Below are positions 14,300-27,940 of a DNA stretch of 64,000 bases, piece after piece. The translations under genes and the position numbers were made by a program. The notes beneath the pieces are model-generated. The model was not told the DNA's origin, made no database searches, and was given only the letters and a program-made list of their open reading frames with translations. The stretch is from Verrucomicrobiota bacterium (GTDB lineage: Bacteria; Verrucomicrobiota; Verrucomicrobiia; Opitutales; UBA953). Within the stretch, counting starts at the first letter, position 1. Each line of letters starts with the position of its first letter. The stretch covers positions 1-64,000 of the forward strand of contig BGOK01000008.1 of assembly GCA_003569205.1 (NCBI GenBank). The letters are read 5' to 3'.

Positions 14300-17200
14300 C
14301 TACTTCGCTGCCTTGGTGCCGGTTTCGGACATGAGATAGGCCAAAAGGTCGCGTTGCTGCTCGGAAGAAAAGGCCTGCAGGAGGGCTTCGGGCATCAACG
14401 AAATGGGCAGGGTTTCGCGCTTCACGATGTCGGTCTTGTCGAGCGTGGTTTCTTGGCCAATCGAACGCAGCGTGAGCGTGCGCTCCGTCTGCGCACCAAC
14501 GATGCCACTGAGGACACGTCCGTCTTTCATGGTGATGGTGTTGAGGTAATACGCAGCGTCCACGACGGCGTTCGGATCCACAATATTTTGCAGTAAGTAA
14601 TCAAGATTGCGGCGTCCGCTCCCAGTGAGGTCCGGTCCAATCGCGCCGCCTTCCCCAAAGAGTTTATGGCACTGCCCACACACGCCCGCATAGAGGGCCC
14701 TGCCCTGCGCGATATCCGCCTTCGCTAAAAAGTCTGTGGTGTGACGCGCCTTGAGCGACGCGATGAGTTGAAGTTTATCTGCCGGGGTCTCGCGCGCTTC
14801 GCCCCACACCGTCACGAGCTGCGCCGTGAGTTTAGCGTCGTTGAAGCCACGAATCTGTCGCGCCGCGGCCGACCCAAGGTCTGACTTCGCTACTTTACCT
14901 TCCGCCATCGCACCGAGGAGTTCGCTGGCAAACTTCGGCCGTGAGACAAGTGCCATGATGGCCTGCGGGCGCTCATGCGGGTAAAGCTGCGGATACCGGG
15001 CGAGAATCTTCTTCGCGACGGCGGGGTCATCGAATTTCGTTAAGCCTTGGATAGCTTCCATGGCTACGCCTCGCACGGAAAGGAGTTTCTCGCAATCGGC
15101 CCGGAGGTTCCCGTCGTTGGCCTCGATGAGCGCGAGTAAAGCCACCCGACGTTGCTCGGCGAGGGCCTTGTCATCTAAGGCTATCTTCCGCACGGCTTCC
15201 AAAGCCAAGCCATCACCAAACAACACGTTGAGCTGGCGGACAGCGTCGATGGCGGGGACGTCCGACGGCGGAATCGACGCGACGAACTTATCCCACGCGG
15301 CGGGCTTCTTCGCCTTACGCCAACCTTTGAGTCCATCCGCCAGGCCAGCCACGAGCGGCCCATGGCCGTCAGGCATGTCAGCAGCCCCCGCCAAGAGGTC
15401 GTTCAGCGGTTCTGGCTCCTTGTCCGAGGCTTCGGCGAGTCGGCGGGCGATGAGTTTACTAACCTGTGGTACGCGACAGACGTGCGCCACATCGACCAAG
15501 GCTGGGAGCGAGAGCTCGCGGATACCGGTCCAAACGAGGAGCGGGAGGTTATGATCCGTGCTGTCCTGCTCGTAGCGGAGTAGGTGCTGGGCCACGAGCG
15601 CACGGATCGGCGGAGTGAGGTGCGGGAGGGATGAAGCGAGAGCGAGTCGAACGCGCTGACCGCGCGGCTGGCTCGCCAGTTGGAGTAAGGCGGTCTCCTG
15701 TTCTTCACAGGTCGGGATGAACCCGAAGTGATTCGCATACTTAGTCAGGGAATTATTACGACGAACCAAGGGCTCAGTAAGCTCGCGTTCAATCAAGCGG
15801 GCCAAAACGTCGGGACGGGTCTCGGCGAGCACCGCGGCGGGCGAGTAATGGGCCTGATGCTGCGCCGCGAAGGGGCTATCGCCCTTCGGCGTGGCTTCCA
15901 TCGCCAGGAGTGTCGAATGCGCATTGAGCGCGACGACTGGGTCCACTTCGGCGGCGAGCTTCTCCCAGGCGGGCAAACCGGATGATAGGTCTTGACCCTT
16001 CCACGCGCGCTCACGGAGTTCCCATCGAGCCATACGGACGAGCCATTCATTGCGGCTACGCTGTAGTTCAACGAGCTGGGCCGGTGTGGCCTTCATTAAG
16101 TCGACTTCGGGCTGCCTAGGCGTACCATAGGCGACCTTATAGATACGTCCGCTGGTCCGGTGAATGCCATCTTCCTCGTGACACTCACCGATGTCGCTCC
16201 AGTCTAGAATCGTCACCGCGCCGTCTGGGCCTTGGCTGAGCTCGATGCCACGGAACCAAGGATCGTCCGACTTCAAAATATCGGGCTGGTGCTTCATCAC
16301 CAAGGCGCTACCTACCCGCTCGATGGCTTCGACGTTCACGCGCCGGCCATGCATATTAAGGGTCATGAGTTTATCGCGGTACGCGATCGGCCAGTTATCA
16401 CCCTGATAAATCATCATCCCGACGTGCGCGTGGCCGCCACCAAAGTCATCCGCGCCACCGCGGCCACCGTCGGCATCGTTCCACTTCTTGCCCGTGTTCC
16501 AGTGGTAGTGGTCGGCCTGCTGGTCGATGAGTTCGTATACAAAGGGATACGGGTCCTCGCCATGCATCCGCTTAAAATGCGCACCATGAATACCCTGCCA
16601 GCCATGCCCGATCACTGTGTTGATGAACAATAGCTCGTGATGCTTGGTCCAATCGGAGCCCCAAGGGTTCGTCGTGCCGTGGCAGTAGGGTTCGAAGATT
16701 TTTTTGATCGGGTGATAACGCCACAGGCCACCCGCGGTAGGCTGACGTTTCGCCTTCTCCACGCCGGGGACATCAATCCACGAGGTACTGGAAATACCGA
16801 CGCGCCCGTAGAGCCATCCATCGGGACCCCACTTCAGTCCGTTGGCAAAGGTGTGGCGGCTGGCGGCCGTCGTGCTGAACCCATCGAGGATGACTTGGGG
16901 CGGACCCGCGGGCTTATCGCCATCCATCGGAATAAAGAGCAGGTTCGGCGGGCACATCGCCCACACGCCACCCAAGCCGCGCTCGATGCTGGTCAGCATC
17001 TGCACGTCTTCCGTCACGACCGTACGTTTATCGAACTTCCCGTCGTGGTCGGTATCCTCGAGGATGATAATCCGATCGCGGAGCTTCAGGTCGAAGCGTT
17101 CCTTGCCGTCGGCATACGTGTAGTTCTCCGCAATCCATAAGCGGCCACGTTCGTCCCAACAAAGGGCGATGGGCTGACGGACGTCGGGCTCAGCGGCGAA

Positions 17201-17356
17201 GAGCGTGGCGCGAAAGCCCTCGGGCAGGTGCAGCTTGGTCAGGGCATCCGCTGACTTCAGCAATGGGATGGTCTCTGGCTGATTATTACGCGGCTCGGGA
17301 AACGCCGCCGCCCCCAGAGATAGGGCAAAGAGTAAAGCAAAGGGGCGGGCATCCAT
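14300..17356 (-). CDS. Secreted propeller/HEAT/cytochrome c protein (PVC type)
   Basis: 1,018 residues from the ATG at 17,356, which gives a clean signal peptide. Domain order: beta-propeller of the glucose/sorbosone dehydrogenase type (about 40-420, with RLWIAENYTYADGKERF), HEAT-like helical repeats (about 430-870), then a C-terminal haem domain with CGQCH near residue 893 and the GPDLTGSGRRNLDYLLQNI pattern. Such proteins are common in Planctomycetes and Verrucomicrobia and are thought to be periplasmic, perhaps sugar-oxidising. The substrate is unknown. It ends just after the CarF-like gene, convergently. A paralogue lies at 29,265-32,297. Confidence 0.85.
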   Translation of the reverse strand: MDARPFALLFALSLGAAAFPEPRNNQPETIPLLKSADALTKLHLPEGFRATLFAAEPDVRQPIALCWDERGRLWIAENYTYADGKERFDLKLRDRIIILEDTDHDGKFDKRTVVTEDVQMLTSIERGLGGVWAMCPPNLLFIPMDGDKPAGPPQVILDGFSTTAASRHTFANGLKWGPDGWLYGRVGISSTSWIDVPGVEKAKRQPTAGGLWRYHPIKKIFEPYCHGTTNPWGSDWTKHHELLFINTVIGHGWQGIHGAHFKRMHGEDPYPFVYELIDQQADHYHWNTGKKWNDADGGRGGADDFGGGHAHVGMMIYQGDNWPIAYRDKLMTLNMHGRRVNVEAIERVGSALVMKHQPDILKSDDPWFRGIELSQGPDGAVTILDWSDIGECHEEDGIHRTSGRIYKVAYGTPRQPEVDLMKATPAQLVELQRSRNEWLVRMARWELRERAWKGQDLSSGLPAWEKLAAEVDPVVALNAHSTLLAMEATPKGDSPFAAQHQAHYSPAAVLAETRPDVLARLIERELTEPLVRRNNSLTKYANHFGFIPTCEEQETALLQLASQPRGQRVRLALASSLPHLTPPIRALVAQHLLRYEQDSTDHNLPLLVWTGIRELSLPALVDVAHVCRVPQVSKLIARRLAEASDKEPEPLNDLLAGAADMPDGHGPLVAGLADGLKGWRKAKKPAAWDKFVASIPPSDVPAIDAVRQLNVLFGDGLALEAVRKIALDDKALAEQRRVALLALIEANDGNLRADCEKLLSVRGVAMEAIQGLTKFDDPAVAKKILARYPQLYPHERPQAIMALVSRPKFASELLGAMAEGKVAKSDLGSAAARQIRGFNDAKLTAQLVTVWGEARETPADKLQLIASLKARHTTDFLAKADIAQGRALYAGVCGQCHKLFGEGGAIGPDLTGSGRRNLDYLLQNIVDPNAVVDAAYYLNTITMKDGRVLSGIVGAQTERTLTLRSIGQETTLDKTDIVKRETLPISLMPEALLQAFSSEQQRDLLAYLMSETGTKAAK

Positions 17357-17425
17357 CGGGGTCTGGGTTACCGACCACACTGCGGGGCGAAGGTTCCGAG
17401 TCGACCCCGCAAGTACTGCTGACGC

Positions 17426-18790
17426 TTAGAACCCGCGGACAATCTGCGCGTAAACGTCGGTCGAGGCCATCTGTGCTGGGAGGCTGGCGTCGCGCGCGGC
17501 GATACAGACGGGCCAGTCGAGTGGGTCCTCCGGCAAACGGCCATGCGAACCTTTCACGAGCGAGGCGTCTTGGGAGACGACTTCCATGAGTGCCTTAAAG
17601 CCGAGGGTCTTCTTGAGGAGGAACCAGGCAATGGTGAGCATTGGGAAGCGAATCTTCGGGTCGATGAAGAGCTCAACGGGGTCGTAGCCAGGCTTACGAT
17701 GGATATCGATGGTGCGAGCGTAGTCGGGATCGCCCTCGCCCTCTTCCCACCAGTAATACGAAAACCAGCTATGGTTGTCGGAGACGACGACGAAATCGCC
17801 ACTACGGATGTGCTTAATGCCGACGGCGGCTTGCGCGTCGGCGTCGAGCACCTGCGCGACGCCCGGCGTGGCGAGGAGGACCTTGCGGACTTCTTCGCGG
17901 ATCGATGGGTCGAGGACGACGACGTGCGCGACCTGGTGGTCGACGACAGCGAAGGCTTTGGAATTAAAGACGTCAAGAGTCTCGGAACCAGACTCTTGCT
18001 TCAGCTCGAGCCAAGCGTGCTGACGCAGGACTTTATTCAGCGGGACGGCCCGATCGACGGCGGTGATGGCGTATTCGGAAACGATGACGACGTCCACGCC
18101 GCGTGTTTCGAGGAAATCGGCTAAGTCCCCGACGAGTTTATCGACGTCGCGACGAGCGGTATCACTGCGTGGGTCGGTCGGACCAAAGCGTTGCAGGTCG
18201 TAATCGAGGTGCGGGAGGTAGACGAGGTTGAGGTCCGGCTGCTCATGCTCCTCGATCCAGCGGGCCGAGGCGGCAATCCACTGAGTGGACGGTAAGCCAG
18301 CGCGCGGTCCCCAAAAACTATGGAACGGGAAATCGCCAAGGTCGCGCTTGAGCAGCTCGCGATAGCGCTGCGGGTAGCTGGCGATGTCGAAGATTTTTCC
18401 GCCGTTGGACTTATAGACCGGACGCGGGGTCACGGAGATGTCCGCATTCGTCCCCATGTTATACCACCAGAAGAGGTTCGCGACCTTGAGCTTCGGGTTC
18501 TTGGCGTGGAGTTCGTCCCAAACTTTCGGAGCGCCAACCACGCGGTTAGATTGCTTCCAGAACTGCACTTCGCTGAGCGTGCGGTCATACCAACCATTAC
18601 CGACGATCCCGTGCACGGAAGGCGTCTGGCCGGTGAGGTAATCCGACTGCGCCGTACAGGTGACAGCGGGGAACGCGGGGTGGACTTTCGCGACGGAGCC
18701 CTTCGCGGCGCGGGCGGCCAAGCGTGGCATCACACCTGACGAGAGGTCGCGGGCGGACAGGCCGACGACGTTCAGGACCGCGCGGCGCAT
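17426..18790 (-). CDS. eboF: EboF-type nucleotide pyrophosphatase/phosphodiesterase
   Basis: 454 residues, alkaline-phosphatase superfamily (type I phosphodiesterase/nucleotide pyrophosphatase). The catalytic threonine is predicted at T44 in AFPAVTCTAQSDYLTG. Metal-site segments include LPHLDYDLQRFGP, SEYAI and SDNHSWFSYYWW. No signal peptide is apparent. It is the last gene of the ebo cluster and overlaps eboD by 19 bases. In ebo clusters this position is filled by such a hydrolase. Its substrate is not established. Confidence 0.82.
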   Translation of the reverse strand: MRRAVLNVVGLSARDLSSGVMPRLAARAAKGSVAKVHPAFPAVTCTAQSDYLTGQTPSVHGIVGNGWYDRTLSEVQFWKQSNRVVGAPKVWDELHAKNPKLKVANLFWWYNMGTNADISVTPRPVYKSNGGKIFDIASYPQRYRELLKRDLGDFPFHSFWGPRAGLPSTQWIAASARWIEEHEQPDLNLVYLPHLDYDLQRFGPTDPRSDTARRDVDKLVGDLADFLETRGVDVVIVSEYAITAVDRAVPLNKVLRQHAWLELKQESGSETLDVFNSKAFAVVDHQVAHVVVLDPSIREEVRKVLLATPGVAQVLDADAQAAVGIKHIRSGDFVVVSDNHSWFSYYWWEEGEGDPDYARTIDIHRKPGYDPVELFIDPKIRFPMLTIAWFLLKKTLGFKALMEVVSQDASLVKGSHGRLPEDPLDWPVCIAARDASLPAQMASTDVYAQIVRGF

Positions 18791-19923
18791 GTCTGCTGGT
18801 CGCGCGCACGCAACTCATCGGTCGCGCGGCGCACGATGGCGGTAGCCATTTCGTGGACCTGAATCGATTTACCGATTGCCGTCGGTAAGACGAGCGTGAG
18901 CTGACCGCCGAGGTGCTCGCGGAACTCCTCGAGGCCGGCGAGCATCGGGGCGCCACCGTCGAGGTGCATCTCCGGCGCATAGGTCCGGAAGCCGAGGGCG
19001 GTGAGTAAATTCAGCGTGCGCTCGGCTTCTTCTTGGCCGAAATGCCCGAGATCGCGGGCGCACAGGATGTCCAAGGCCAAGCCGACGGCGACGGCCTCGC
19101 CGTGCGTGAGGCGATGGTTCGTCATCGACTCAAGCTTGTGCGCTGCCCAATGGCCGAGGTCGAGCGGACGGGCGCTGCCGAGTTCGAAGGGGTCGCCATT
19201 GCCAGCGATGTGGCGGGCGTGCAGTTCAGCCGAGCGGCGGACGGCGCGGCCGATGGCCGGAATGTCGCCAGCGGCAAGCATCGTAGATTCCTTCTCAAGG
19301 TTACCGAAGAAGACCGGGTCCTTGAGGAGTGAAACCTTCACAGCTTCAACGAGGCCATCACGTAGGCCACGCGCATCGAGTGAGGCGAGCAGGCCAAGGT
19401 CGTTCACCACCGCGGCGGGGACGACGAAGGCACCGGTGAAGTTCTTCTTCCCAAAAGTGTTGATGCCGTTCTTCACGCCGACACCAGCGTCGCCTTGGCC
19501 GAGGGTCGTGGTGGGCATGCGCACGAGACGGACGCCACGGTGGGCGGTGGCCGCGGCGAACCCGACCGCATCGAGGAACGCACCCCCGCCGATGGCGAGG
19601 ACGTAGGAGTGACGGCAGATCTTGTCGGCCTCAATGGCGGCGAGGGCGGCTTTGACGACGGCCGAATCCTTCTTGGCCGCTTCGCCCCCGGTCAGCACCA
19701 GCGGCGTCCGGGTGAAGTGCACACCCATGGCCTTACCATAAGCGGTGATCTCTGCGACGAAGCCCGGACGGGCGGACGCCAAACCCGAATCAACAATCGG
19801 AATGACCTTAGCGCCGGCAAAGAGGTCGGCCAAGACGCGGTTGCCAGACGCGAACGCATGCTCCGTAAAGAAGATGCGGTGGCGGTAGGTTACCGAGAAT
19901 TCGAGGTCAAGGGAGTCGTCCAT
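18772..19923 (-). CDS. eboD: EboD-type 3-dehydroquinate synthase homologue
   Basis: 383 residues from the ATG at 19,923; an in-frame start at 20,007 adds a basic tail not typical of relatives. The dehydroquinate-synthase fold is clear: GGGAFLDAVGFAAATAHRG, PTTTLGQGDAGVGVKNGIN, the metal-site blocks GHWAAHKLES and THGEAVAVGLALDI. Ebo members form a separate branch, and the gene sits in the ebo cluster rather than with shikimate genes, so a cyclase acting on another sugar phosphate is more likely than a role in aromatic synthesis. Confidence 0.85.
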   Translation of the reverse strand: MDDSLDLEFSVTYRHRIFFTEHAFASGNRVLADLFAGAKVIPIVDSGLASARPGFVAEITAYGKAMGVHFTRTPLVLTGGEAAKKDSAVVKAALAAIEADKICRHSYVLAIGGGAFLDAVGFAAATAHRGVRLVRMPTTTLGQGDAGVGVKNGINTFGKKNFTGAFVVPAAVVNDLGLLASLDARGLRDGLVEAVKVSLLKDPVFFGNLEKESTMLAAGDIPAIGRAVRRSAELHARHIAGNGDPFELGSARPLDLGHWAAHKLESMTNHRLTHGEAVAVGLALDILCARDLGHFGQEEAERTLNLLTALGFRTYAPEMHLDGGAPMLAGLEEFREHLGGQLTLVLPTAIGKSIQVHEMATAIVRRATDELRARDQQTCAARS

Positions 19924-20013
19924 AGCCCTGGGGGAGGGGTTATCAGAGCCCTTACGACCCCTGCGGGCAAGCCCTGTTCCCTGCCGCCTACTGTCAATTT
20001 CCGCCAAAAAGCC

Positions 20014-21096
20014 TTAAGTCTGCGGAATCCAGCGACGGAACAGCAACGTCAGGCCAAAGCAGGCCAAGGGTCCAAGCAGCGCCAGCGCGCCGAAGGGGAC
20101 GAGGTTCGCCACGTGGGTCGGGTGAAACACAACCGAAGCTGGCGCGCCGAGCGGCACCGTGATCCAAAGCAGCGGACGCCCCACGATGAGGTAGTCGAGG
20201 AACGGAGAGGCGGCGAGACGGTCGGACACCCGACCGGACACGCCCGCGGGCAAGGGATGGCGGCGATTGGAATTCCAGATCCAAGCGACGAACAAAGCCA
20301 AGGCATACCAAGCCATGAATCCGTTGCCGAGGCCCCGGAAGGCGGCGTACAGCGCCAGCGGGAGCGGGACCACGTAAAGCGCCCAAGCGGTCCATTCCGG
20401 CGGATTGCCGTCGGTGGCCTCATGGCGTGCGACCCAGGTGAGCCCGGATGTGTGGGTCCACAAGGTGGCGGCGGCGAGGAGGTAGAGCTGCCAGGGACTG
20501 GTCAGGGTGCCGAGGATGGACTCGCCCCCCAGGGCCGCGCCCAAGATGGGCAACATCGCCCGGCAGAAACCCATCACCGCCGGAGCCCAGGCGACGCCTT
20601 TGTGCCAACGGTCGTAGACCAGCACGCCGGCGACGAGCGCGAGGACGAGTACGGCGAAGAGGCCGACATCGGAGCCCTGCTTGCCGGCCGCGACCTCGGG
20701 CACCGCCGCCATGCGCAGCGACCGTACGAGGATCGCACCGGCCGCACCCGCGAAGAGGAGCCCGTACCCTACAATCCCGGCGGCTTTCCGCGAGACTGCG
20801 CCGGAGGGGATGGGTCGGGCCGGGCGGTGCTGCGCATCCCACGCCGCGTCGAAGAAGTCGTTCAGGATCATGCCGCCGACGTAGATCGCCGAAATAGCGA
20901 GCAGGAGCGCGGCGAGCGGCCAGAAGAGGATCAGGGCGGAGGCAGGTCGGCTGAAATCCATCCGGGCCAAGCCAAAGTACAGCGAGTCGGACATCCCGTC
21001 CAGGTAGGTGGCGGCGAGCCAGCCGACCAGGATCGACGACCATACCGTGGGCAGGTTGGAAGCGCGGGAGAGGATGAGCCAAGGGCGCAGGTTCAT
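20014..21096 (-). CDS. eboC: EboC-type UbiA prenyltransferase
   Basis: 360 residues, multi-helix membrane protein. The first prenyl-diphosphate motif is NDFFDAAWDAQHRPARPIPS (polyprenyl-binding aspartates plus the PIPSG loop), and a second Asp-rich segment is near YDRWHKG. It should transfer a prenyl chain to an acceptor in the membrane. It lies between eboE (7-base gap) and eboD (90-base gap). Acceptor unknown; in ebo clusters a prenylated carrier has been proposed. Confidence 0.87.
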   Translation of the reverse strand: MNLRPWLILSRASNLPTVWSSILVGWLAATYLDGMSDSLYFGLARMDFSRPASALILFWPLAALLLAISAIYVGGMILNDFFDAAWDAQHRPARPIPSGAVSRKAAGIVGYGLLFAGAAGAILVRSLRMAAVPEVAAGKQGSDVGLFAVLVLALVAGVLVYDRWHKGVAWAPAVMGFCRAMLPILGAALGGESILGTLTSPWQLYLLAAATLWTHTSGLTWVARHEATDGNPPEWTAWALYVVPLPLALYAAFRGLGNGFMAWYALALFVAWIWNSNRRHPLPAGVSGRVSDRLAASPFLDYLIVGRPLLWITVPLGAPASVVFHPTHVANLVPFGALALLGPLACFGLTLLFRRWIPQT

Positions 21097-21103
21097 CGCG
21101 TGC

Positions 21104-22276
21104 TCAAAGGGGCTTCACGCCGGCCTTGGCGAGTTCGGCGAGGGTCCAGCGATACTCCGCGGCAATCATGTCTGCAACGTCGGCGGTACGCACTTCCGCC
21201 GGCAGGACTTCCCAAGTATACGTTTCGATTTCCAGCTCACGGCAGCGTCCGGGATTCTTGCCGATGACGGCGATAGCGTCGCGCAAGTGGTCGTTCGTCG
21301 TAGAGAGTTCGTCCGAAAGGTGATCCGCGTTCACGGGCACATGGAAATGCACGCGAAGTTCCTCAAGCGTGCGGAGCTGGTCGATGGCGGCCATGGCCAA
21401 CGGGATGTCCTTGAAGCGCACAATCGAACCGTCCTTGGCCCGTCCCATGGTCTGGTGGAGGTACACGGGCTCGTGCATCTTCGCCAAGCGCGCGAGGGCG
21501 ACTTCCGTCGGCTTGAGCCGCAGCGCGGAGCTGAGGTGAAACTTCAGCACGGGTGCACCACCCGCATCGAGGCGCGCAATGGCTTCATGGGCCTGCTCGT
21601 ACTGGAGCGCGAAGTGACAGGTGTCGTACGCGATGCCAAGCGTGCGGTCGACGAGTCCTTTCGAGGGTTCTTCGGCGCGCAACTGTTCAAAGAGACGAAT
21701 GGCTTCCGGCGTATTCTCGGCGTGGCCAATCGGCTCGGGCTCGAGCGCGAGACGCAGCGTGACGCCGGTGCGATCACGCAAGCGGTCGAGGTGTTCGCCG
21801 CACGCGAGCAGGTTGCGGCGCATGACCTTAAGTTCTTCGGCGTTGCGGCCGAAGCCCTTGAACGACCCTGGCAGTGTACTCACGGTGCCAACTTGGTCGG
21901 GTGGGCCAAACGCAGCGAGGAGGTCGAAGAGTCGATTGGTATACTCGAGACGCGCGGGCTCACACCAGTCGGGCGCGAAGACGTTGTCCTTCACGGCCTG
22001 GCCGTGGAATGGGCCAAACGGGAAACCATTGATACCTGCGACAACGCATTTTTCTTTATCCAACCAATGGCGGAAGGCCGTCAACGTCGCCGGCTCGGAG
22101 AGCTCCGCCGCAGCACGGTCGCCGAGGCGCAGTCCGAGGACGTATGTCTGACCTGGCGAGACGCGGTCACGCACACGCATAGCGTGGTCACGAAGGCCCG
22201 CAAACGTTTCCACCCACCCTTCGCCGCGATGGACGTTGGTACAATAGGCGAGGCTGAGGCCGGACGAGAGCTTCAC
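21104..22276 (-). CDS. eboE: EboE-type TIM-barrel protein
   Basis: 390 residues, xylose-isomerase-like TIM barrel. Opening SGLSLAYCTNVHRGEGW is characteristic of EboE. Candidate metal ligands include LALEPEP, YDTCHFALQ, KFHLSSAL and HFHVPV. It starts 2 bases after eboB ends. Predicted to be an isomerase or epimerase-like enzyme; reaction unknown. Confidence 0.87.
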   Translation of the reverse strand: MKLSSGLSLAYCTNVHRGEGWVETFAGLRDHAMRVRDRVSPGQTYVLGLRLGDRAAAELSEPATLTAFRHWLDKEKCVVAGINGFPFGPFHGQAVKDNVFAPDWCEPARLEYTNRLFDLLAAFGPPDQVGTVSTLPGSFKGFGRNAEELKVMRRNLLACGEHLDRLRDRTGVTLRLALEPEPIGHAENTPEAIRLFEQLRAEEPSKGLVDRTLGIAYDTCHFALQYEQAHEAIARLDAGGAPVLKFHLSSALRLKPTEVALARLAKMHEPVYLHQTMGRAKDGSIVRFKDIPLAMAAIDQLRTLEELRVHFHVPVNADHLSDELSTTNDHLRDAIAVIGKNPGRCRELEIETYTWEVLPAEVRTADVADMIAAEYRWTLAELAKAGVKPL

Positions 22277-22278
22277 GT

Positions 22279-23094
22279 TCAGCGCAGAGCCTGCGGATCC
22301 TTAAAGTTCGGCGACTGCGACAGGAAGCGCACGGGGTTGCCGTACACGAGGCTGTCGATGGCGGCGGCGGAGTGCCCGCGGCGGCGCATCTCCTGCATGG
22401 CCTTCGGCACGGCGAGCGGGTCGCTGTGGCCCCAATCACAAGCGCTGTTCAACCACACGCGCTGCGAAGCAAAGTTCTCCAGCATGTCGACGGCGCGCAC
22501 GGGCGTGGCCTTCGATTCCGGGTAAAGCGTGATACCAGCCCAGAAGCCTTGATCGAGGACTTCGCCGATGGTGTGCTCTTCGACGTGGTCGATGATGACG
22601 CGCTCGGGCTTCACTTTACCGGCGGCTTTAAGGACGTCCATGATGAGGCGCGTGCCCTTGCGCTTATCCTCAAGGTGCGGGGTGTGGACGAGGATCAGTT
22701 GGTCATGCTTCACCGCGAGTTCGACGTGCTTCTCGAGGATAAGCATCTCGTTGCGCGTATTCTTATTCAGGCCGATTTCGCCGATGCCGAGGACCGTCTT
22801 GGCCTTCATGAATTCGGGGATGAGCGCGAGCACGTCGTCGGCGAGCTTCATATCTTCGGACTCCTTCGGGTTAATGCAGAGCCAGCAGTAATGCGGGAGG
22901 CCATACTTCGCGGCGCGCTTGGGCTCGTGCTGCGTCAGCTGACAGAAGTAATCGTAGAAACCGTCCGCGGTCTTGCGGTCGAAGCCCGCCCAGAAGGCCG
23001 GCTCGCAGATGGCCGCGCAACCGGCCAAGGCCATCGCTTGGTAGTCGTCGGTGGTACGGCTCACCATGTGGCCGTGAGGTTCGATATAACGCAT
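22279..23094 (-). CDS. eboB: EboB-type TatD-family hydrolase
   Basis: 271 residues, amidohydrolase/TatD barrel. Metal motif EPHGHM at residues 5-10, then GIGEIGLNKNTRNE, LVHTPHLEDK, IIDHVEEHT and LNSACDWG. This pattern fits EboB rather than standard TatD nucleases, which usually have HCH. It is packed between eboA (9-base gap) and eboE (2-base gap). Confidence 0.87.
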   Translation of the reverse strand: MRYIEPHGHMVSRTTDDYQAMALAGCAAICEPAFWAGFDRKTADGFYDYFCQLTQHEPKRAAKYGLPHYCWLCINPKESEDMKLADDVLALIPEFMKAKTVLGIGEIGLNKNTRNEMLILEKHVELAVKHDQLILVHTPHLEDKRKGTRLIMDVLKAAGKVKPERVIIDHVEEHTIGEVLDQGFWAGITLYPESKATPVRAVDMLENFASQRVWLNSACDWGHSDPLAVPKAMQEMRRRGHSAAAIDSLVYGNPVRFLSQSPNFKDPQALR

Positions 23095-23103
23095 GGTCGG
23101 GGC

Positions 23104-23406
23104 TTACTTGAGGCCAGGCCAAACGCCAGAGGCGGCTTTGGTGTCGGCTTTTTCGATCGGGGTGACAGACGGGTCGCTCCACAGGTGGAGGATTTGGGCG
23201 ACGCGGTCATCGCCAGACTGCAGTAATAGCGGGAGCGCGGCGCGAAGTCCGCGGACGCGATGGTCTTCGGGGCCACTAGCCTTTTCGAGGCGGTCGAGGA
23301 AGGCCGCGAGGTCGAGGAGCTTATAACGCGCGTCCATGAAGTGGAGGTCAGCCACTTGGTCGCGGGTCCGGCGAGGGGTGCCGGCGAGAGGGTTGGGGTC
23401 GGACAT
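23104..23406 (-). CDS. eboA: EboA-type protein
   Basis: About 100 residues from the ATG at 23,406; the longer frame to 23,475 adds an unlikely Arg-rich leader. It is an all-helical-looking cytosolic protein with segments YKLLDLAAFLDRLEK and RVRGLRAALPLLLQSGDD. EboA has no known biochemical role. Identified mainly from position at the head of the ebo cluster together with size; it appears shorter than many EboA proteins. Confidence 0.65.
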   Translation of the reverse strand: MSDPNPLAGTPRRTRDQVADLHFMDARYKLLDLAAFLDRLEKASGPEDHRVRGLRAALPLLLQSGDDRVAQILHLWSDPSVTPIEKADTKAASGVWPGLK

Positions 23407-23515
23407 GGGGGGACGGACGCCGAAGCGTCCTGGTGGATTAGACACCAAAGTGCGACAGAGGTCCCCACGGGTCAAGCCACCCTGCCCTTGGGCGGGGTGG
23501 ACCTGAAGCCAGGCC

Positions 23516-23995
23516 TTACTTGGCGGCAGCGCCGTCCTTCTTCAGTTCTTCAGCCGTCCAAGGGGTCTTGCGGTCGGCATACTTGGCCTTGATCGCCTTG
23601 ACCTCGGCTTCGGTGACTTCGGCGCCCGAGTTACCAAACGAATTGCGGACGTAAGTGATGACGTCGGCGATGTCCTTATCGGTCACGCCGCCGACCGGGG
23701 GCATCATGCCGTTATAGGTCGCGCCCTTAACCGTGACGGGACCCACCATACCTTGGACGATATTACGGACGGCGACCGAGGCGTCCATGGCGACCCACTC
23801 GGAACCAGCCAGCGGAGGGAAGACCGGAGGGAGGCCCGCGCCCGTGGGCTGGTGGCAAGCGATGCAGGTGCGGCTGTAGACGGCCTGACCACGCTTCATG
23901 GTGTCGGCGTTAGGGGCGGCCGGCTTGGCTGTTTCGGCGGCGACGGCGACGGTCGTAACGAGGGAGGCAAGGGCGAGGAACTTCAGGGAGGACAT
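23516..23995 (-). CDS. Secreted class I cytochrome c
   Basis: 159 residues with a signal peptide. One haem site CIACH in RGQAVYSRTCIACHQPTG; the axial methionine is probably in NGMMPP. C-terminal part is Lys/Glu-rich. Periplasmic electron carrier. It lies 109 bases upstream of eboA on the same strand and could be co-transcribed, though the gap may contain the ebo promoter. Such small cytochromes are common partners of exported dehydrogenases. Confidence 0.88.
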   Translation of the reverse strand: MSSLKFLALASLVTTVAVAAETAKPAAPNADTMKRGQAVYSRTCIACHQPTGAGLPPVFPPLAGSEWVAMDASVAVRNIVQGMVGPVTVKGATYNGMMPPVGGVTDKDIADVITYVRNSFGNSGAEVTEAEVKAIKAKYADRKTPWTAEELKKDGAAAK

Positions 23996-24228
23996 AGTCG
24001 TGATGAGAACCCCAAGGAGGCGACTTGGTTGGGAATCTCAAAACGAAAATGCAGTTTCGCGCCGCCTACCCGACAGCCATTAGACGCACCCACTGGCGGG
24101 ATTAGGGCCGGGCACATCGTGAAATGTGATTTAAACGACAAAGAGTTATGCCAGGACCGAAATACCCTTTGGTCGTAAGCCCTTTAAATCATGTCGACCT
24201 AGCATCGTTCGAAGCTTAATTAAATGGG

Positions 24229-24981
24229 GTGAAAACGACACCGACCCTCGATGTCTGGTTAAACCAAGTTCAGGTCCGCAGCCTGCGCTCGGTCTTTGAC
24301 CACCTCCCCGGGGTGATGTTTTTCGCCAAGGATTTGGAGGGGCGTTTCACGATGGCCAACCTCGCCTTCGCCCAGCGCTGCGGCCAAGCCGATGAGGCCG
24401 CCCTCCTCGGCAAGACCGACGCCGATGTCTTCCCGCCCGAGCTGGTGGCCAACTTTCGGAAGAAGGACCTGCAAATCTGCCAGAGCGGTGAGCCAGCCAT
24501 GCGGCTGGTGGAACTCTTCCCGAACGAGAACGGCGAACACGTCTGGTATGAGACCACCAAACTCCCGATCTTCGACGTGTACGGCAAGCCCTGCGGCGTG
24601 TTCGGCACCGTTCGGAGTTACGCGGGCACCAAGGCCCTGCTTGAACCTTTCCTGAAGGTTGAAGCCGCCGCTGAGTTCATCCAGCAGAACCTCGCGGACG
24701 CCCTGAACATAGACAAATTAGCCAAACTCACCGGCCTCTCCATCCGGCAGTTCGAGCGCAAATTCCATAAGGCCTACCTGGTCAGCCCCCGCGCCTACCA
24801 CGTCCGTATGCGGGTGGCCGCGGCCTCCGACCTTCTTAAAGACACCGACCTCCGGCCCTCGGAAATCGCCGACCGGACTGGTTTCTATGACGCCAGTGAC
24901 TTCTCGCGGCAGTTCCGCCGGGCCATGAAAATGAGCCCGACCCACTTCCGCCGGATGCATAAGAGCGGTCAAGAAGGCTGA
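24229..24981 (+). CDS. AraC-family regulator with N-terminal PAS domain
   Basis: 250 residues, starting with GTG at 24,229. The PAS domain (about 18-125) has LPGVMFFAKDLEGRF at its start and GVFGTVRSYAG at its end. The C-terminal double helix-turn-helix (about 145-245) has LAKLTGLSIRQFERKF and PSEIADRTGFYDASDFSRQF. An out-of-frame ATG at 24,224 opens a three-codon frame ending in TGA across the GTG, which could affect translation. It is upstream of the MFS and Gfo/Idh genes on the same strand and is their likely regulator. Confidence 0.87.
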   Translation: MKTTPTLDVWLNQVQVRSLRSVFDHLPGVMFFAKDLEGRFTMANLAFAQRCGQADEAALLGKTDADVFPPELVANFRKKDLQICQSGEPAMRLVELFPNENGEHVWYETTKLPIFDVYGKPCGVFGTVRSYAGTKALLEPFLKVEAAAEFIQQNLADALNIDKLAKLTGLSIRQFERKFHKAYLVSPRAYHVRMRVAAASDLLKDTDLRPSEIADRTGFYDASDFSRQFRRAMKMSPTHFRRMHKSGQEG

Positions 24982-25072
24982 GCGTCCTAGGCCGGGGGCT
25001 GTTTTGCCGTCTCGACAGTGACGAAAAACTGTCTTTTATCAGGAGCGTACCCCCCTCCCCAACCATACCTAT

Positions 25073-26665
25073 ATGAGTACTATGACTGACGAACAACCCT
25101 CCGCTGTACCCAACGCACACCGCCTCCTCTGGGCGGGCTTCATGGCCATCCTTGCGGCGGGCGTAGGCTTCGCCCTCCGTGGCGGCATCTTCGGCGCATG
25201 GGCGTCCGAATACGGCTTCAACGCCTCCCAACTCGGTGCCATCGGCGGCGCCGGCTTCTCGGGCTTCTGCTTCGGTATCATCATCGGCGGTGTCATCGTC
25301 GACAAGATCGGCTACGGCAAGCTCGTCGCCCTCGCCCTCATCGGCCACATCGTCTCGGCCTTCGTCACCTTCGGCGCCTCCACCCCGCAGAATGCGTATG
25401 ACTTCCTCTACTGGGGCATGTTCATCTTCGCCTTCGCGAACGGCACCCTCGAAGCCGTGGCCAACCCGCTCGTTGCCACGATCTTCCCCAAGCAGCGCAC
25501 GCACTACCTCAACATTCTGCACGCCTCCTGGCCGCTCGGCATGGTCGTCGGTGCCGTTGCTTCCTACATCCTCGGTTCCCTCATGGGCCTCGGCTGGAAG
25601 GCTCAGCTCTCGTTCTACCTCGTCCCGACCATCGCCTACGCTGTGATGTTCATGGGCCAGTCCTTCCCGAAGTCGGAAGCCGCCGAGAAGGGCGCCTCCT
25701 TCTCCGAGATGTTCAAGGACGTCGGCATCCTGGGCTCGCTCGTCGCCTGCTACCTGCTCTCGATCTTCCTCGGTAATGTCCTCACCCCGCTGGTCTTCAA
25801 GTGGTTCGCAGTCTCTATCCCAGACCTCGGCCTCTACCTTGCTGGCGTCCTGCTGATTGCCGTCGGCGTCATCACCCGCTTCTCCATCGGCTCGCTGCTA
25901 CTCTTCGTGCTCTTCATCACCCACGCCCTCGTCGGCGCGGTCGAGCTCGGTACCGACGGCTGGATCGAAGCCATCACGGGCAACCTCTTCACCCCGGAAC
26001 AGGGCAAGATCCTCTTTATCGTGACCTCGGCCATCATGTTCGGTCTGCGCTTCTGCGCGCACTTTATCGAGACCAAGCTCGGGCTCTCCCCGATCGGTAT
26101 CTTACTGGTCTCGGCGCTCCTCGCCTTCGGTGGCCTCCAACTCGCCTCGGGTATGCAGAGCTTCGGTGTCGCGCTCCTCGCCCTCGGTATCTACGCCCTC
26201 GGCAAGACGTTCTTCTGGCCCACGATGCTGGCCGTCGTCGGCGACCGCTTCCCGCGCTCTGGCGCCGTCGCGATGTCCATCATGGGTGGTATCGGCATGC
26301 TCTCCGCTGGCCTGATCGGTGGCCCTGGCCTCGGCTACGCCAAGGACCGCTTCACCAGCGAATCCCTCAACGCCACCGCCCCGGCGGTGTACGCAGCCAA
26401 CAAGTCGGCCACCGAGTCCAAGTTCCTCTTCCTCGCCCCAGTGACCGCAGTCGACGGCAAGAAGCTCGAAGAAGCCAAGAAGGCCGGCGACAAGGGCACG
26501 GCTGACCAGAAGGCCATCGTCTCCGCCAACCAAGCGGGTGACCGCGCCACGCTGAAGGCGGATTCGTTTATCCCGCTGGCCATGGCCGCAATCTTCCTGG
26601 CGCTGTTCTTCTACTTCAAGAGCATCGGTGGCTACCGCGCCCTGAAAATCGAAGAGCAGGTCTAA
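25073..26665 (+). CDS. MFS transporter (sugar permease-like)
   Basis: 530 residues, 12 predicted membrane helices. The loop [16 protein letters not shown] matches the major-facilitator motif between helices 2 and 3. An unusual ~90-residue Ala/Lys-rich soluble segment (about 425-510) lies before the last helix. Together with the downstream Gfo/Idh dehydrogenase this suggests uptake of a sugar or polyol. A terminator follows 25 bases after the stop, so the dehydrogenase has its own promoter or depends on read-through. Confidence 0.85.
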
Positions 26666-26690
26666 GTACCCGCTTAACTCTCCCCGCGAA

Positions 26691-26718
26691 GGCCGCACGG
26701 AAACGTGCGGCCTTTTTG
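26691..26718 (+). terminator. Rho-independent terminator
   Basis: Perfect 9-bp stem GGCCGCACG/CGTGCGGCC, GAAA tetraloop, T5 tail. It lies between the MFS and Gfo/Idh genes. Confidence 0.92.
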
Positions 26719-26812
26719 TTGTCCGAGTGTCCGGCACGGTGTCGTTATCTTCCCAGATAATCGGCTTCCGTCCGCGGAGGTTTCGGACTGAATAAAGTCA
26801 CCCCACCTTCCT

Positions 26813-27940
26813 ATGAGCACCAAGAAAATCCGTATCGCGCTGGCCGGCCTCGGCTTCGGCGCGGAGTTCATCCCGATCTACCTCGCCCACCCCAACGCGG
26901 AGATCGCCGCCATCTGCCAGCGCAACCCCGCCAAGCTGAAGGAAATCGGCGACCGCTACGGCATCGCCAAGCGCTACACGTCCTACGAGGAAATGCTCGC
27001 GGACCCTGAAATTGACGCGGTCCATATCAACACGCCGATTCCCGACCACGGTCGCCAGTCCATCGCCGCCCTCAAGGCCGGCAAGCACGTGGCCTGCACC
27101 GTCCCGATGGCTACCTCTATCGCGGAGTGCGAGGAGATTGTGAAATTAGTCAAGGCCACGGGCCTGCGCTACATGATGATGGAGACGGTAGTTTACGCGC
27201 GCGAATTCCTCTTCGTGAAGGAGCTGTACGACAACGGTGAACTCGGTCGTCTGCAGTTCCTCCAAGCCTCCCACCAACAGGACATGGAAGGCTGGCCCGG
27301 CTACTGGCCTGGCCTCCCGCCCATGTACTACGCCACGCATTGTGTCGGCCCGATGCTCGCACTCACCCAAGCTGACGCCGAGTATGTCTCGTGCTTCGGT
27401 TCTGGTCGCATCGCCGAGGAGATGATTCCGATCTACAACTCGCCCTTCGCGGTCGAGACGGCTCATATCAAGTTCCATAAGTCCGATGTCTCCGCGCGTA
27501 TCATCCGCTCGCTCTTCGATACGGCCCGCCAATACCGCGAGTCGATCGACGTCTACGGTTCCAAGAAGTCCTTTGAATGGCCGCTCGTCGAAGGCGAAGA
27601 GCCCGTCATTCACACGGCGAAGAAGGCTGAGCCGGAAATCCCGCAGAAGGTGAAGGTGCCTGACTACGCGCACCGCCTGCCGAAGGAAATCCAGCGCTTC
27701 ACGACCAAGGGCGTCTACGGTGAAGGCGAAGACCACTTGTCGTTCACGCAGGGCGGCGGCCACGGTGGCTCTCACCCGCACTTGGCAAACGAGTTCATCC
27801 AAGCCCTTCTCACCGGCCGCGAGCCATTCCCGAACGCGCGCCAATCCGCCAACTGGACCTGCACGGGCATCCTCGCCCACGAGTCCGCGATGGCCGGCGG
27901 CGAAATCCGTAAACTCCCCGCCTTCACGCTGCCAGGCTAA
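26813..27940 (+). CDS. Gfo/Idh/MocA-family oxidoreductase
   Basis: 375 residues. N-terminal Rossmann domain (about 5-125) with ALAGLGFGAEF and HINTPIPDHGRQSIAALKAGKHVACTV in two parts (VHINTPIPDHGRQS; AGKHVACTVPMA). The C-terminal domain is substrate-binding, with METVVYAREF and YATHCVGPM. Predicted cytosolic NAD(P)-dependent sugar dehydrogenase. Downstream of the MFS gene, so it may oxidise the imported sugar. Confidence 0.85.
   Translation: MSTKKIRIALAGLGFGAEFIPIYLAHPNAEIAAICQRNPAKLKEIGDRYGIAKRYTSYEEMLADPEIDAVHINTPIPDHGRQSIAALKAGKHVACTVPMATSIAECEEIVKLVKATGLRYMMMETVVYAREFLFVKELYDNGELGRLQFLQASHQQDMEGWPGYWPGLPPMYYATHCVGPMLALTQADAEYVSCFGSGRIAEEMIPIYNSPFAVETAHIKFHKSDVSARIIRSLFDTARQYRESIDVYGSKKSFEWPLVEGEEPVIHTAKKAEPEIPQKVKVPDYAHRLPKEIQRFTTKGVYGEGEDHLSFTQGGGHGGSHPHLANEFIQALLTGREPFPNARQSANWTCTGILAHESAMAGGEIRKLPAFTLPG

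Follow-up and report, generated by a model that had tools for sequence, protein, structure and literature searches.

A complete G-type ebo operon, headed by eboG, in an uncultured member of the Opitutia (Verrucomicrobiota)

The first 64,000 nucleotides of contig BGOK01000008.1, from an uncultured member of the Opitutia (Verrucomicrobiota) and here called the window, carry at positions 17426 to 23406 a complete G-type ebo operon (eboG-B-E-C-D-F), an alternative form of the widespread ebo operon. This is a known kind of operon, of which the locus is a further member. The six genes lie on the minus strand in less than 6 kb, with successive gaps of 9, 2, 7, 90, and -19 bp, the close packing that an earlier note on this DNA had described, and homologues of EboB, EboC, EboD, and EboF are grouped with EboE. 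Because homologues in the same order are present in relatives, the cluster is not a chance arrangement. The earlier note had taken the first gene for eboA and the cluster for the eboABCDEF type; we found the eboG variant, assigned to the G type because its first gene is an eboG homologue and has no EboA match. We think it fairly probable that this operon makes a lipid-linked (prenylated) cyclitol and that EboG serves as the partner of EboB. The source genome is 2.23 Mb and 85% complete, and many of the compared genomes are metagenome-assembled drafts.

The operon's first gene, eboG (23104..23406, minus strand), encodes a protein of 100 amino acids from an ATG at 23406, and a longer version from a TTG at 23475 is possible. 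The protein matched no Pfam or NCBIfam model, and the EboA profile (NF035938) matched neither it nor anything else in its own 85% complete genome at an E value of ≤10. A profile of its verrucomicrobial relatives matched the short protein encoded 5' of eboB in Deinococcus (82 bits at L054 and 62 bits at L053) and Gemmatirosa (81 bits at L055) and none of three EboA proteins, with E values that refer to a very small sequence set. In a profile-profile comparison (hhalign) of EboG with eight EboA sequences, the probability was 0.1%. The EboG profile found nothing significant among solved structures (best E value, 0.066), and 70 EboG rows searched against Pfam and NCBIfam gave only scattered weak matches, the best with an E value of 0.0025 in 3 of the 70. 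It has been reported that eboG replaces eboA in Deinococcus, Truepera, Herpetosiphon, Thermithiobacillus, and an acidobacterium and that EboA and EboG have no detectable homology to each other (Yurchenko 2016; PMC5133447), the only source within the ebo literature searched that uses EboG in this sense. We take the Deinococcus short protein to be the published EboG by its taxon and position. The missing match to the EboA profile undoes the earlier naming of the first gene but leaves the cluster as a whole an ebo cluster.

The second gene, eboB (22279..23094, minus strand), encodes a TatD-like metallohydrolase of 271 amino acids (PF01026; E value, 1e-09). Six of its residues (H7, H9, E106, H137, H170, and D220), which we take to be ligand-type, are kept in 19 of 19 rows. 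Among the plasmid rows listed (40 of 51), the protein is 58 to 60% identical to EboB of the Deinococcus and Gemmatirosa plasmids and 41 to 46% identical to the other 37. An EboB tree of 66 chosen rows, made by a quick method with Shimodaira-Hasegawa-like approximate likelihood ratio test (SH-aLRT) support and no bootstrap, resolved three clades, one encoded beside eboG (support, 100; 36 rows, with no eboG detected in 3), one beside eboA (98; 9 rows, with no eboA detected in 1), and one beside neither (98; 21 rows). EboB of the window sits in the G clade with proteins of Deinococcus, Gemmatirosa, and Planctomycetota, apart from the A clade. The third clade is represented in the phylum by loci L099 to L117, L049, and L051; a small gene within 2.5 kb upstream of EboB was sought in the 21 loci of this clade, and no family was found that extends beyond close relatives.

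The G-type operon on plasmids of Deinococcus strains AB2017081 and QL22 has the same six genes, with eboG directly 5' of eboB and a shared G-B-E-C run, and its EboB is 58 to 59% identical to that of the window; its order is D-G-B-E-C-F, with eboD before eboG, whereas here eboD lies between eboC and eboF. With the A-type eboABCDEF operon of Bacteroidetes, cyanobacteria, and eustigmatophyte plastids, which includes the satellite cluster of Nostoc, the window shares homologues of EboB, EboC, EboD, EboE, and EboF, and the core chemistry is probably common to both. It differs from that type in having eboG rather than eboA first, in its gene order, in an EboB from a separate clade, and in having no match to the ScyE/ScyD family in its genome. 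In one cyanobacterial and one Bacteroidota plasmid, we also observed a gene annotated as "ferritin-like protein" near the ebo genes (L056, 13144 to 14262; L059, 5865 to 7133).

EboG is frequently linked to EboB. Within the window's class, the two are neighbors on one strand, with EboG immediately upstream, in 44 of 46 genomes (of the 45 with listed coordinates 43, plus G375). G237 and G240 are the sole strong exceptions there. Outside the class, the two adjoin in eight of nine genomes with a strong EboG match, and in the ninth (G320) EboB is 396 bp from a contig end. When genome records were entered through EboB, using the best 80 of 591 relatives, EboG preceded EboB by 0 to 651 bp in 69 of 80 loci, and 5 of the remaining 11 have less than 400 bp of sequence 5' of eboB. 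EboA is likewise directly upstream of EboB in all five EboA genomes of the phylum. EboG probably acts as an EboB partner, the role held by EboA in the other ebo type. As a separate observation, G375, of the same taxonomic order as the window, has eboB in two frames (L036, 8599 to 9392) within a G-B-E-C-D-F cluster that is otherwise complete, and its EboC match crosses one TGA.

We also found that the ebo set is inherited together. Across a phylum sample of 387 genomes, searched at an E value of ≤1e-20 for EboB and ≤0.001 for the other proteins, EboE was present in 154, EboB in 155, EboG in 76, and EboA in 5 genomes from a single family. EboG genomes also have EboB in 75 of 76 cases and EboE in 73 of 76, and EboA and EboG never occur together. 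The EboG matches reach at least 81 bits in 55 genomes, all with EboB and EboE, and the other 21 are weak (43 to 60 bits), 12 of them crossing at least one stop codon. Within the window's class, the same 46 genomes make up the EboE, EboG, and EboB sets. EboD (442 to 524 bits) and EboF (E value, ≤1e-20; in two pieces in G295) were each found in all 46 and EboC, at 120 bits or more, in 45, all except G096. These counts include matches by construction, since part of the rows in the search alignments were drawn from the searched genomes. None of the three reached Ebo level in 20 EboE-negative relatives, where EboC reached at most 52 bits; these 20 represent the window's own family and order, listed by name, and are not a random draw from the 233 negatives. 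The ebo genes are often far apart in these genomes: on one contig of G024, eboE lies at about 23 kb, eboC at 386 kb, eboF at 505 kb, eboD at 809 kb, and eboG with eboB at 1.168 Mb. The EboD and EboF alignments contain no row from family f10, whose ebo genes are the most scattered. Joint inheritance of the set across 46 genomes, in many of which its genes are dispersed, speaks for a single pathway leading to a single product.

The firm anchor of cluster identity is eboE (21104..22276, minus strand), which encodes a xylose-isomerase-like TIM barrel of 390 amino acids that scores 399 bits on the equivalog NF035939 (cut-off, 250). In EboE, nine residues (Glu, Asp, His, or Lys) are kept in 25 of 25 rows. 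The next gene, eboC (20014..21096, minus strand), encodes a UbiA-type membrane prenyltransferase of 360 amino acids (PF01040), whose first Asp-rich motif, NDxxDxxxD, is invariant in 28 of 28 rows. NF035940, the EboC model, matched all 28 members of this alignment at an E value of ≤0.001. We presume that the conserved residues of EboC and EboE have the functional roles familiar from their families. The product types that the earlier note had read for genes 2 to 6 hold up in these matches and in those of EboB, EboD, and EboF. Its claim of a full functional set also finds support, the set being complete and probably functional, with six intact genes, inherited together, and ligand- or motif-type residues kept in EboB, EboC, and EboE.

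The fifth gene, eboD (18772..19923, minus strand), encodes a protein of the sugar-phosphate-cyclase family, 383 amino acids long from its ATG (PF01761; NF004852, 477 bits against a cut-off of 333), and the open reading frame as listed starts with a TTG at 20007. In Staphylococcus aureus dehydroquinate synthase, the pocket for 3-deoxy-D-arabino-heptulosonate 7-phosphate (DAHP) comprises Asp130, Lys136, Asn146, Glu178, Lys181, Lys221, Arg235, Asn239, His242, His246, and Lys314 (PMC6262012). Placed by motif and in that numbering, three of these positions are changed in 25 of 25 EboD rows, Lys221 to His, Arg235 to Ala, Ser, or Thr, and Asn239 to Asp, and seven are retained (Asp130, Lys136, Asn146, Glu178, Lys181, His242, and His246), the placement of Lys314 being uncertain. 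Given the residues that we take to bind the substrate carboxylate in dehydroquinate synthase, the loss of two basic residues would fit a substrate without a carboxylate, and the changes suggest a function for EboD other than that of a dehydroquinate synthase. EboD and 4p53, which we take to be ValA, have in common the family, the metal ligands, several pocket residues, and an Asp at the Asn239 position; in contrast to dehydroquinate synthase, EboD has no equivalents of Lys221 or Arg235, and it keeps His246 where 4p53 has an aligned Pro. The identification of EboD as the housekeeping AroB was rejected: a lower match of the EboD search (51 to 196 bits), taken as AroB, is present in all 66 genomes, and EboD is additional to it in the 46 with EboE. 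The window's own genome has a separate aroB-like gene (G000:C2:54047-55071; L219, L221) split between two overlapping frames, which looks like a frameshift. The same gene is in one open frame in G102 and G298, of the same genus. Either an assembly error or decay may account for the split.

In the pathway that we favor, we infer the following substrate, step order, product, and role. EboD would cyclize a sugar phosphate that lacks the carboxylate of DAHP (for example, sedoheptulose 7-phosphate) to a cyclitol, EboE and an EboB-EboG pair, presumably in contact, would then remodel it, and EboC, the membrane enzyme, would add a prenyl chain, giving a lipid-linked cyclitol that would function at the inner membrane, either as a carrier or as a cofactor. 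A prenylated cyclitol has already been proposed as the ebo product (PMC5133447), and a lipid-linked carrier was proposed from Nostoc mutants, in which the scytonemin monomer stayed in the cytoplasm whichever of the tested genes (eboA, eboB, eboC, eboE, and eboF) was deleted (PMC6282210). A role of ebo genes in moving a metabolite to the periplasm is known from Nostoc alone (PMC6282210). The earlier note had seen no scytonemin genes here. We searched for the ScyE/ScyD family alone and found 0 matches in the window's own genome (85% complete), which lends that statement weak support: of 14 control genomes, 5 likewise have a match, which makes the family unspecific as a scytonemin marker. That the real substrate is something other than the scytonemin precursor is a reasonable inference.

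Several observations weigh against this pathway or its assignments. EboC scores 109 bits on NF035940, its best NCBIfam match, below the cut-off of 250. In the two exceptional genomes of the class, EboG and EboB are on separate contigs, and among 20 weak EboG genomes with EboB, the two are adjacent in 11 and not in 9. A distance (mirror-tree) test of co-evolution did not separate EboG with EboB (partial correlation, 0.39) from EboG with EboE (0.31), the bootstrap difference being -0.13 to 0.26 (51 loci; 43 after removal of near-copies). Both EboA and EboG are missing from 76 of the 154 phylum genomes with EboE; therefore, a partner of this type is not needed everywhere. A cyclitol product was found for no ebo operon in the literature searched, and the acceptors of EboC in vitro are quinoline acids rather than cyclitols (PMC9235831). 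Finally, if EboF lacks the zinc-ligand residues, as considered below, the phosphate-releasing step may not exist.

A broader account, which we put forward tentatively as a possible one, would treat EboA and EboG as unrelated, exchangeable partners of EboB, with the three partner states (A, G, and neither) tracking the three EboB clades. Under this account, the verrucomicrobial pathway would be old and cohesive, kept whole though its genes are scattered, so that a cell-envelope lipid cofactor would fit better than a niche secondary metabolite, and EboF would be a nonhydrolase that binds the lipid product or a protein of the pathway.

The evidence on EboF bears on this account and on a more conventional one, in which EboF would be an ordinary two-zinc enzyme, a phosphodiesterase or phosphatase, and would free phosphate from a pathway intermediate. 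The gene eboF (17426..18790, minus strand) overlaps eboD by 19 bp and encodes a protein of 454 amino acids with a type I phosphodiesterase fold, whose match to PF01663 (E value, 7e-57) spans nearly the whole model. We take nucleotide pyrophosphatase/phosphodiesterase (NPP) enzymes to have six metal ligands, among them Asp54, His214, and His258 in NPP numbering, and a Thr nucleophile. EboF keeps a nucleophile-type Thr and one Asp ligand position, which, with the near-full match, speaks for the conventional account. Against it, in all 14 diverse rows examined, the Asp54, His214, and His258 positions hold Val or Ala, Gln, and Tyr, respectively; at the Asp257 position, 11 rows have Glu and 3 have Asp. 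These placements come from a weak alignment (24 and 17 bits) that leaves His363 unplaced. These replacements suggest that EboF has lost zinc ligands and may not be a normal two-zinc hydrolase, and we regard the conventional account as doubtful. The main text of PMC5133447 does not contain the term "active site."

We consider it unlikely that, instead of encoding a carrier-lipid pathway, the cluster is a common secondary-metabolite operon for a prenylated aromatic of the quinoline or indole type, in which EboD would give a shikimate-like ring and EboC would prenylate an aromatic acid. EboC homologues of Maribacter, Zobellia, and Algoriphagus did farnesylate 8-hydroxyquinoline-2-carboxylate (PMC9235831), and the Pseudomonas EDB cluster, in which ebo genes occur (PMC6282210), has been connected with indole compounds (PMC9655573). 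However, the Nostoc ebo mutants all built up the same monomer, and gene-specific intermediates were absent (PMC6282210). In addition, none of four flanking genes scanned against Pfam encodes an aromatic tailoring enzyme, and none of the flanking genes tested is common beyond close relatives, save for a distant cytochrome c match in Gemmatirosa. Very improbable, finally, is a divergent EboA heading a classical eboABCDEF cluster: EboA and the first gene share the position 5' of eboB, and both are small and poorly conserved, but the profile searches, the hhalign result, the place of the window EboB in the G clade, and the mutual exclusion of EboA and EboG in the phylum sample lead us to reject it at the level of sequence.

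A cytochrome c gene (23516..23995, minus strand; PF00034) lies 109 bp upstream of eboG and is not counted among the ebo genes. Such a gene is found just upstream of eboG on the same strand in six of six close-relative loci (L033, L034, L035, L141, L142, and L147; L139 and L140, also close, were left out of this comparison) and in none of eight more distant loci (L036 and L128 to L134). The flanks (14300 to 17380 and 23516 to 27940) encode a haem-binding protein of the Planctomycetes-Verrucomicrobia-Chlamydiae (PVC) type, the cytochrome c, a PAS/AraC regulator, and a major facilitator superfamily (MFS) transporter, with a Gfo/Idh-like gene named by eye. This flanking set is kept in G102 (L033) and at L141, partly kept in G298 and G384, and absent from the eight more distant loci. 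In relatives, where the earlier note had suggested looking for the cluster and its neighbors, the cluster recurs in the same order, and shared neighbors occur in close relatives only.

These results correct the reading of one ebo cluster, in which eboG, not eboA, is the first gene. EboG is a small family, without a Pfam or NCBIfam model found, that mostly stays by EboB when the operon disperses. If the EboB clade without either partner is real, the published two-way division into A and G types would be incomplete. The residue findings in EboD and EboF, in turn, make the question of the substrate directly testable.

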